Source: Methanoculleus chikugoensis
GTDB taxonomy: Archaea > Halobacteriota > Methanomicrobia > Methanomicrobiales > Methanoculleaceae
Length of the DNA: 64,000 bases
Direction of reading: 5' to 3'
Assembly: GCF_019669965.1 (NCBI RefSeq)
Contig: NZ_AP019781.1
Coordinates: forward strand, 2,109,092-2,173,091
Positions within the stretch are counted from its first letter, which is position 1. Each line of letters begins with the position of its first letter. Below are positions 47,299-53,823 of this stretch, one piece after another. The notes under the pieces were generated by a model. It was not told where the DNA came from, made no database searches, and saw nothing but the letters and a program-made list of their open reading frames with translations. The position numbers and the translations under genes were made by a program.

Positions 47299-47424
47299 GT
47301 AATAGCAGCGAGTCGGGCTTCCCGAGGGCTCGCGCACCTCAGTACCACACGGCACGTGGGAGGGCTTAACTGCTGGGTTCGGAATGGGTCCAGGTGTTTC
47401 CCCTCTGCTATGGCCGCTATTACC
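47299..47424 (-). rRNA. rrf: 5S ribosomal RNA
   Basis: On the minus strand the RNA runs from GGTAATAGCGGCC through CCATTCCGAACCCAGCAGTTAAGCC and GGTACTGAGGTGCG to CTGCTATTACC. The terminal helix and loop sequences are those of archaeal 5S rRNA. It is the last gene of the rRNA operon. Ends are estimated from the terminal stem. Confidence 0.9.
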
Positions 47425-47510
47425 AGTTACATCCAGGTATGAAGTGTCGGTCGAGTCGAAAACCCCTGTGGGGTTTTCTCCCCAATCGGCCGCTTCGCGC
47501 CCGAATGGAA

Positions 47511-47581
47511 GCCAAGGCCCGGACTTGAACCGGGGTGTAGTTGATCTGCAGTCAACCGCGTGGCCGCTCCGCCACCTTGGC
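47511..47581 (-). tRNA. tRNA-Cys (GCA)
   Basis: The acceptor arms GCCAAGG and CCTTGGC pair fully. The anticodon loop CTGCAGA gives GCA (Cys) and the T-loop reads GGTTCAAGTCC. It lies between 23S and 5S, whereas tRNA-Cys, when rRNA-linked in methanogens, is usually placed after 5S. Confidence 0.92.
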
Positions 47582-47646: not shown

Positions 47647-47682
47647 GGTGCGTACTCCGGATTTCGTCTGAGTTCAGCGGAC
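47647..47682 (-). other. 3' arm of the 23S processing stem
   Basis: GTGCGTACTCCGGA and GAGTTCAGCGGAC are complementary, with small bulges, to 50593-50630 on the other side of 23S. This is the pre-rRNA helix cut by the archaeal splicing endonuclease. Confidence 0.7.
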
Positions 47683-47683
47683 G

Positions 47684-50592
<2,909 letters not shown>

Positions 50593-50630
50593 GTTCCGCT
50601 GAACTCATTTAACGTCCAGAGTACGCACCT
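50593..50630 (-). other. 5' arm of the 23S processing stem
   Basis: GGTGCGTACTCTGGACG followed by GAGTTCAGCGGAAC on the minus strand. It pairs with 47647-47682 to close the 23S precursor loop. Confidence 0.7.
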
Positions 50631-50726
50631 ATACACAGCCTCCTCAGGTCAAAAGACCTTCAGCCCTTCCCCGGTGATTCACATCTCCGGGTGCATCGAA
50701 GGCAGGAAGGGATGCTTCCTGCCCAG

Positions 50727-50799
50727 TGGACTCAGGGGGATTTGAACCCCCGGCCTCCGCCTCGCAAAGGCGGCGCTCTTCCAACTGAGCTATGAGCCC
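50727..50799 (-). tRNA. tRNA-Ala (TGC)
   Basis: The acceptor GGGCTCA pairs with TGAGTCC. The D-arm AGCTCAGTTGGAAGAGC, anticodon loop with TGC (Ala) and T-loop GGTTCAAATCC are all present. It occupies the usual 16S-23S spacer position. Confidence 0.95.
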
Positions 50800-50866: not shown

Positions 50867-52333
<1,467 letters not shown>

Positions 52334-52478
52334 TTGGAAGTAATGCACACTACTAAACTTGGGAGGAATTAGCGGTTACTGAACAAATTTCCGCATTGCC
52401 AATGCCAACGTCAGAACCAACCCGCGTCACAGCGCGGTTGCGTCGGTTCTCCATCAACAGGAAAACAATGTTTATTTT

Positions 52479-52496
52479 ACAAGTATTTAAACATAT
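52479..52496 (-). promoter_or_regulatory. tandem rRNA promoter unit 1
   Basis: Minus-strand TATA-like TTTAAATACTTG, flanked by GGAAACATATGTTT and AACATTGTTTTCC, which mirror each other. It is the nearest of six evenly spaced units to the 16S gene. Confidence 0.55.
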
Positions 52497-52618
52497 GTTT
52501 CCTGCATCGGATTCGAGAGCAAGTCTCGAACCTTCATATCCGTTTTGAATACAGGGAACTCGGCCCAAACCGGGTCGCGAGAGTTCACCTGTGAGGGAAT
52601 TAACGTTTGTGTTTGAAC

Positions 52619-52632
52619 ACATATAAACGTTT
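52619..52632 (-). promoter_or_regulatory. tandem rRNA promoter unit 2
   Basis: Minus-strand AAACGTTTATATGTG, a strong archaeal TATA box, with CACAAACGTTAATTCC about 15 bases downstream where transcription could begin. Confidence 0.55.
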
Positions 52633-52761
52633 TCATCCCGCTTCAGGATCCACCCCGGAGATTCCCGAAGGATCTCCGGCCCGATCCGGGAACTGTCCGG
52701 AAATTTGCGTTCCGAACTCCCAGATGTTTCACCTGCGCAGGAACATATGTTTGTGAGTCAT

Positions 52762-52775
52762 CACATATAAACATT
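52762..52775 (-). promoter_or_regulatory. tandem rRNA promoter unit 3
   Basis: Minus-strand AATGTTTATATGTG followed downstream by ACAAACATATGTTCC. About 143 bases from unit 2. Confidence 0.6.
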
Positions 52776-52881
52776 GTTCCTGCCCGGGTTCCGGGCCGAA
52801 GACTGAACACATATTCCCGGCCCCTGCGCCCGCATCGCGGGCGCATGAGTTCATTTTGTGAGAATATATGTCGGATCTCCA

Positions 52882-52896
52882 GACATATAAACATTG
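52882..52896 (-). promoter_or_regulatory. tandem rRNA promoter unit 4
   Basis: Minus-strand AATGTTTATATGTCTGG followed downstream by CGACATATATTCTCAC. About 120 bases from unit 3. Confidence 0.6.
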
Positions 52897-53026
52897 TCAC
52901 CCTGCATCAGACCCGAATCAATTGTCGGGCCCTCACAGCGGTTGAGGGGACACGAGATCAGACCACCCCGGAAGGGCTGCACGATCCGACGTCCTGACAA
53001 CACAGCCTTACTATGTTGTCACCAAT

Positions 53027-53041
53027 GCTATATAAACATTT
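53027..53041 (-). promoter_or_regulatory. tandem rRNA promoter unit 5
   Basis: Minus-strand GGAAATGTTTATATAGC followed downstream by GACAACATAGTAAGG. About 146 bases from unit 4. Confidence 0.55.
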
Positions 53042-53173
53042 CCCTGCTTTGTCGGATCCAAGCACGTGGCTTCGACCCCCATAAACGTTGAGATCTCCGG
53101 ACGTTCTGCACATCCCGTGCAGAATTCGCGCGGATTTTGCTCCCAACTTGACTATTACATGTTGATGCTGGAG

Positions 53174-53188
53174 GTATTTATACATTTA
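53174..53188 (-). promoter_or_regulatory. tandem rRNA promoter unit 6
   Basis: Minus-strand GTAAATGTATAAATACC followed downstream by ATCAACATGTAATAG. About 147 bases from unit 5 and the farthest from the 16S gene. Confidence 0.5.
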
Positions 53189-53516
53189 CCCCGCACCGGT
53201 TCAGAAAAGTGGAATCGCACTGTCGAACTCTCCGGATTCACCCCTCAAAAGACCTCGCCGGAAGGCAGGAGCGCGGGTAAGATCCCATGCGCGCAGTCCC
53301 ATCGATCACGGAGCGGGCATAATTATCGCAGGCATAGGGCGAACGGCGCTATCAGATCGGGGATGAGAGGTCCCGATCCAGAACAGGACCACGGCATCTA
53401 AGGTTTCACATAACGCCGCCCCCATCTACCCTTCGCACCTGACGATGCTCACACCCCGGCTCTTCAGCCTGTCGCGCCGTCCCGGCAGTCGCGCTCCGGA
53501 GTGTCGCACTCCGTTT

Positions 53517-53626
53517 TCGCGCGAAACCGCGAAGGACGACTTTCCCGAAGGGTGCGATGGCCCGCAGGGCCGGAGCTTGAGAAACCCGAAAGGTTTCGGA
53601 CAGGAGTTCGAGCACCGGAGGTGCGG
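53517..53626 (+). repeat. dispersed GC-rich repeat, copy A
   Basis: Contains the words GCGCGAAACCGCGAAGGACGA, TTTCCCGAAGGGTGCGA and GAGTTCGAGCACCGGAGGTG in this order. The same words occur in the same order on the minus strand at 63639-63558. It lies in the 600-base gene-free stretch (53200-53823) between the rRNA promoters and scpA, which otherwise shows only smaller palindromic fragments. Confidence 0.75.
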
Positions 53627-53823
53627 AGTGCGGCCCCCCCTGTGGGGGGAGCATGGGCACCGTCAGGTGCGAAAGACAACGCCCTTTGACCCATCGTGCC
53701 TCCGGTGCGCCAACTCCGCTCAGGGCGAAACGTCACCCTTTGCGTGAGTTTTCAGTAGAGGAGAACGACCTCACGCGTTGAGCGCGAAAGGCTGTTGAAA
53801 GTTTGACGGGAGTTTCCTCAGGG

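Follow-up and report, generated by a model that had tools for sequence, protein, structure and literature searches.

The rRNA operons of Escherichia coli are transcribed from tandem sigma-factor promoters, P1 and P2, which raise and differentially regulate rRNA synthesis. In Halobacterium the rRNA operon is single copy. Among archaea, up to five rRNA promoters have been described for Halobacterium cutirubrum, at least one of them growth-rate-regulated (PMC4983044, citing Dennis 1985), and Haloferax volcanii has three rRNA start sites, at 185, 293 and 444 nt (PMC4983044). The archaeal core promoter consists of BRE and TATA elements, depends on TBP and TFB, and typically places its TATA box ca. 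28 nt before the start (PMC8553660). For the Methanomicrobiales, no published rRNA promoter mapping or start-site data were found in the literature searched.

The window considered here is a 64,000-nucleotide stretch of the complete, single-contig genome (2,622,259 bp) of Methanoculleus chikugoensis. This genome contains one 16S gene and a single rRNA operon. The operon lies on the minus strand and begins with the 16S rRNA gene (50867..52333), followed by tRNA-Ala (50726-50799), 23S (47675-50600), tRNA-Cys (47510-47581) and 5S (47300-47421), with the genes for ScpA and SMC located upstream on the same strand. ScpA shares 97% identity with its counterpart in M. chikugoensis L21-II-0, and most of its remaining near matches come from Methanoculleus as well. 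Six promoter-like units, all in the direction of the operon, are found 5' of the 16S gene. They are read here as six complete TBP/TFB-type core promoters that would feed the single operon with read-through and nested leaders, a reading to which a probability of roughly 0.8 is assigned. The arrangement resembles the arrays of Halobacterium cutirubrum/salinarum and Haloferax volcanii in placing several promoters of the same direction within ca. 750 bp of the 16S gene, with nested leaders, and promoters of differing strength belong to the shared traits. It differs in the number of units (six, with up to seven in relatives), in its TTTATATG-type TATA box, in an obligatory CAACAT at +20/21 and in the conserved hairpins in which units are embedded; moreover, activity has been measured in haloarchaea, while here it is predicted from sequence. 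The preliminary description of the locus had contrasted it with the one or two promoters usual for archaeal rRNA. This is too strong, since several rRNA promoters (up to five, or three) are established in haloarchaea and two to seven units are the rule in the Methanomicrobiales. Stacked rRNA promoters are therefore already known, and the Methanoculleus array is an unusually long, well-conserved variant rather than a new kind of system. It goes beyond these precedents in the number of units, in their occurrence across the Methanomicrobiales, in the fixed CAACAT shared with tRNA genes and, in Methanoculleus, in the hairpins embedding the promoters. The E. coli P1/P2 pair is a functional analogy only, with unrelated promoters and two rather than six of them.

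Anatomy and conservation of the six units

The units are numbered outwards from the 16S gene, and all lie on the minus strand. P1 (52458..52507) carries the TATA box GTTTAAATA, with its G at 52492, AACAT at +20 and a predicted start near 52462 (score 33.7, core identity 0.96). The same box, GTTTATATG, is found in the following three units: P2 (52594..52643; G at 52628, predicted start near 52598, score 30.2, core identity 0.93), P3 (52738..52787; G at 52772, predicted start near 52742, score 28.6, core identity 0.84) and P4 (52858..52907; G at 52892, predicted start near 52862, score 25.9, core identity 0.88), with P2 and P3 each located within a covarying inverted repeat or hairpin. P5 (53003..53052) has GTTTATATA, with G at 53037 and a predicted start near 53007 (score 34.6, core identity 0.90), and the most distal unit, P6 (53149..53198), has GTATAAATA, with G at 53183 and a predicted start near 53153 (score 28.6, core identity 0.94). 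The scores are those of the order-wide two-block model introduced below, and the core identities were computed over 16 Methanoculleus genomes. Measured from the 16S start, the TATA boxes stand at 160, 296, 440, 560, 705 and 851 bp, with successive spacings of 136, 144, 120, 145 and 146 bp from proximal to distal, and no unit was found beyond P6 out to 1500 bp upstream.

The consensus form of the TATA box, GTTTATAT/GTTTAAAT/GTATAAAT, is present in all six units, and in each a (C)AACAT or AAACRT word begins 20–21 bp past the TATA G. Upstream of the box, an A occupies position -2 in every unit and position -3 in five of the six, in a stretch too short to distinguish a BRE from general AT-richness. 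The preliminary description had given spacings of about 140, 143, 120, 146 and 147 bases, which are close to those computed here; its ACAT word is likewise present throughout, at a tighter offset than the 15–25 bases proposed. Its "even" spacing holds approximately within this genus, while other genera range from ca. 62 to 190 bp. A fixed, nucleosome-like spacing of 146 bp describes P6–P5 and P5–P4 in the genus but was rejected on the same range.

The six units stand out clearly from the remainder of the sequence. A 45-bp matrix was built from 68 units of other Methanoculleus species, leaving out the focal genome; run over both strands of the window, it returned P1–P6 as its top six matches, with scores of 34–55. 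The seventh was the reverse strand of P1, at 23.8, the best unrelated site in the window reached 14, and the best score in 20 simulated 128-kb sequences was 5. This ranking, together with the simulated scores, excludes a chance origin of the six units. A genome-wide search with the strict pattern GTTTAWATRN{11,12}ACAT gave three matches, each inside the array, and a looser 18-position pattern adds one further site, immediately 5' of a tRNA gene. The array as a whole occurs once in the genome, adjoining the sole 16S gene, and a search of plasmids gave no match. The reverse-strand match corresponds to a promoter-like sequence on the plus strand (52455..52504; GTTTATTTT, G at 52470) with both TATA and AACAT, which overlaps P1, scores 23.8 and 22.4 and is a product of the P1 dyad. 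It is present in 13 of the 16 Methanoculleus genomes, and this conservation implies that P1 could be bidirectional.

Conservation was assessed in the 16 Methanoculleus genomes with an intact upstream region. Thirteen of these, the focal genome included (12 of 15 congeners), have all six units at unchanged distances, so that the doubt raised at the outset as to whether the further units are conserved in relatives is answered in favour of conservation. The other three genomes (G010, G028 and G033) have four units above threshold, with one or two lost or degraded and their remains still visible, which indicates that not every unit is indispensable. The TATA and ACAT cores have a column identity of 0.91, which exceeds the 0.78 of the remaining array sequence (p=2e-11); the sequence beyond the array, on its upstream side, has 0.59. 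An extra GTTTATATA at about -943 in two of the genomes (G001 and G024) was not counted as a unit, as it is without a CAACAT word.

At the level of the order, a two-block model (block 1, aAAtGTTTATATg; block 2, AACATTgtta.Ccc), trained on the same regions that it scans, identified 223 sense units in the 1-kb upstream regions of 56 Methanomicrobiales genomes, compared with 2 in shuffled sequence; its 25 antisense matches fall mostly in Methanoculleus at the P1 dyad. Among these units, 84% share a TATA-to-ACAT offset of 20 bp, and a further 13% have one of 21 bp. Two or more units are found in 54 of the 56 genomes, with a maximum of seven in four genomes of one genus (g12). An earlier, regex-based count had missed boxes of the GTATATATC type. 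When applied to 19 genomes belonging to other families in the phylum, the order-trained model, which may not fit their own promoter types, found at most two units.

Two further stretches were noted beside the array. Directly 5' of the 16S gene, 52375-52450 (-120 to -40) is near-invariant within the genus and is predicted to form a leader hairpin and one side of the 16S processing stem. In the gap between the array and ScpA, the G+C-rich stretch 53425-53790 is composed of short palindromic modules in mosaic arrangement and contains several inverted repeats; with 53 genome-wide matches, reaching 93% identity over 112 bp, it looks like a dispersed repeat family of the genome.

Probable promoter identity and the tRNA genes

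The same two-part layout is found at tRNA genes. Of 28 tRNA upstream regions examined in the genome, 15 have a positive TATA score, and in 10 of these block 2 scores best at exactly offset 20, against ca. 0.6 expected with 25 offsets tried. The mean block-2 score, plotted by offset, has one sharp peak, 0.1 at position 20, compared with -12 or worse elsewhere. As the tRNA genes were left out of the training set, this result is an independent check on a model that had been trained on the rRNA regions it scans. At the tRNA loci L136, L144, L151 and L160, among others, a CAACATTGTAgGGC-type element lies ca. 20 bp downstream of the TATA box, and this shared element is a candidate stable-RNA promoter consensus for Methanoculleus. 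Given the same TATA plus CAACAT layout, at the same offset, before tRNA genes, the two-part architecture is most likely the stable-RNA core promoter of the organism.

With an archaeal TATA box ca. 28 nt before the start, CAACAT would lie within the segment that melts prior to initiation, and starts are predicted ca. 30 bp past each TATA G. The unit is like the archaeal core promoter (PMC8553660) in its AT-rich TATA box, in the A-rich bases just before it, which may represent a BRE, and in having an element within the melting or initiator region. The CAACATTGTA-type downstream element, common to tRNA genes in the Methanoculleus genome, is far stronger here than the two-base "WW" -10 element of haloarchaea (PMC4983044). 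Conservation across genus and order, cores better conserved than spacers and the recurrence of the same promoter at tRNA genes together support the earlier interpretation as a tandem promoter array, which, on sequence evidence, appears largely right.

Leader structure and rival readings

The leader between the promoters (52432..53092, minus strand) has conserved secondary structure, with hairpins in each spacer, and is presumed to be transcribed by read-through from P5, P6 and other upstream promoters. Consensus folding of the sense strand over the 16 congeners gives z-scores of -3.0 to -9.9 in most windows from -760 to about -60; beyond -1000, most windows stay close to zero. Compensatory changes are found in the hairpins of every spacer, and a test of G-U against A-C mismatches clearly favours G-U in the spacers (22:1 in the P4–P5 spacer). 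The conserved structure starts only downstream of P6/P5; being of the RNA type, it is indirect evidence of read-through from the distal promoters.

Structure also extends over the promoters themselves, which permits a reading in which the motif serves chiefly as a structural element of RNA or DNA, or else as a palindrome bound by a regulator; the TATA-like word would then be a hairpin arm or one half of the site of a dimeric factor. P2 and P3 lie in the inverted repeat AAYRTT-TATA-TGTGA...TCACA-AAYRTT, in which 93% of cells are paired over 24 distinct sequences, against 29–46% for slid pairings, and in which 24 two-sided changes are seen, against 7.7 in shuffles and 0–2 for slid pairings; P1, P2, P3 and P5 each fold more stably than their shuffled versions (z -3.3 to -5.8). 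Yet TATA and CAACAT keep the same offset in other families that lack the dyad, as they do before tRNA genes, the P2/P3 hairpin is not common to P4, P5 and P6, and the variable inner stem of the hairpin speaks against sequence-specific protein contact there, so that a mainly structural role is considered very unlikely. On the RNA or DNA origin of the P2/P3 dyad, the same mismatch comparison gives the promoter dyads no decisive excess of G-U (16:14 at P3), and the upstream control region itself has 218:122. The promoter dyads may have been selected as RNA, as DNA, or through a possible antisense-promoter role of P1. Alongside promoter function, the hairpins overlapping P2 and P3 form a second constraint on the same sequence and could explain part of its conservation.

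A different reading is that only one or two units are active, the remaining ones being leftovers of earlier tandem duplications. Units do duplicate, as is seen in another genus of the order (see below), some have been lost or degraded in the three congeners named above, and in H. cutirubrum two of the five rRNA promoters are hardly detectable (PMC4983044). Relics would nonetheless be expected to decay over such divergence, whereas all six cores are 84–96% identical over the 16 congeners, above their flanks, with P6, the most distal, among the best conserved; this reading is therefore regarded as unlikely. Equally improbable is the proposal that the number of promoters compensates for rRNA gene dosage, with single-operon lineages multiplying promoters and multi-operon lineages having no need to. 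Among 35 complete or near-complete genomes, those with one operon have a mean of 4.6 units and those with several 2.75, and unit number correlates negatively with rRNA copy number (Spearman -0.58, p=0.0003). Once a phylogenetic regression on the 16S tree is applied, however, the slope loses significance (p=0.13 with the best lambda, 0.45 with lambda set to 1), two-operon members of the genus with up to seven units have six while their one-operon relatives have seven, and several one-operon genomes have two units only. The raw correlation stands, the phylogenetically corrected one fails, and no trade-off is claimed. A comparison with other rRNA operons of the M. chikugoensis genome, as proposed in the preliminary description, has no counterpart, a second operon being absent.

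Proposed working and significance of the array

In the tandem promoter reading, each unit would comprise two elements: a TATA box rich in A and T (TTTATATG/TTTAAATA/TATAAATA), with an A-rich position in front of it where a BRE would be expected, and, 20–21 bp downstream, a CAACAT-type word at the site melting just before the start. Polymerases would initiate at the six predicted starts and cross the downstream promoters, giving pre-rRNAs with nested 5' leaders of ca. 130–820 nt, all of which would be trimmed to the same 16S. We infer that each promoter fires, that their output is additive and that read-through occurs; the array would thereby increase initiation at a single-copy gene and may also regulate it differentially.

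Arrays would expand and shrink through tandem duplication of a promoter-plus-spacer unit. In a genome of another genus (G127, L036 869-1285), a 132-bp unit of this composition stands in 3.2 tandem copies that are 99% identical; this expansion of the array is apparently recent, and the repeat argues that arrays grow by tandem duplication. Unit number varies among close relatives, from two to five in one genus (g26). On these sequence comparisons, tandem duplication combined with loss would be the simplest account of the origin of the array.

A more tentative suggestion, which we hold to be possible though rather less than probable, is that in Methanoculleus the downstream promoters are folded into the nascent RNA coming from upstream ones and sequestered there in hairpins. 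The inverted-repeat arms cover TATA and CAACAT at P2 and P3, and more weakly at P1 and P4, and compensatory change keeps the P2/P3 pairing. If true, such hairpins could prevent termination or pausing in T-rich promoter DNA, keep the next promoter free of obstructing R-loops, or guide the processing of pre-rRNA, and rRNA operons would show a new architectural principle, a promoter on which selection acts at the level of DNA and of RNA structure alike.

rRNA promoters set the growth capacity of the cell, and the Methanomicrobiales are a major methane-producing order. The array yields a promoter consensus common to rRNA and tRNA genes and six predicted starts per operon. With two to seven units per operon over an entire order, the multiplication of promoters by tandem duplication becomes traceable, and the covarying hairpins over the promoters raise the question of how polymerases cross a chain of active promoters.
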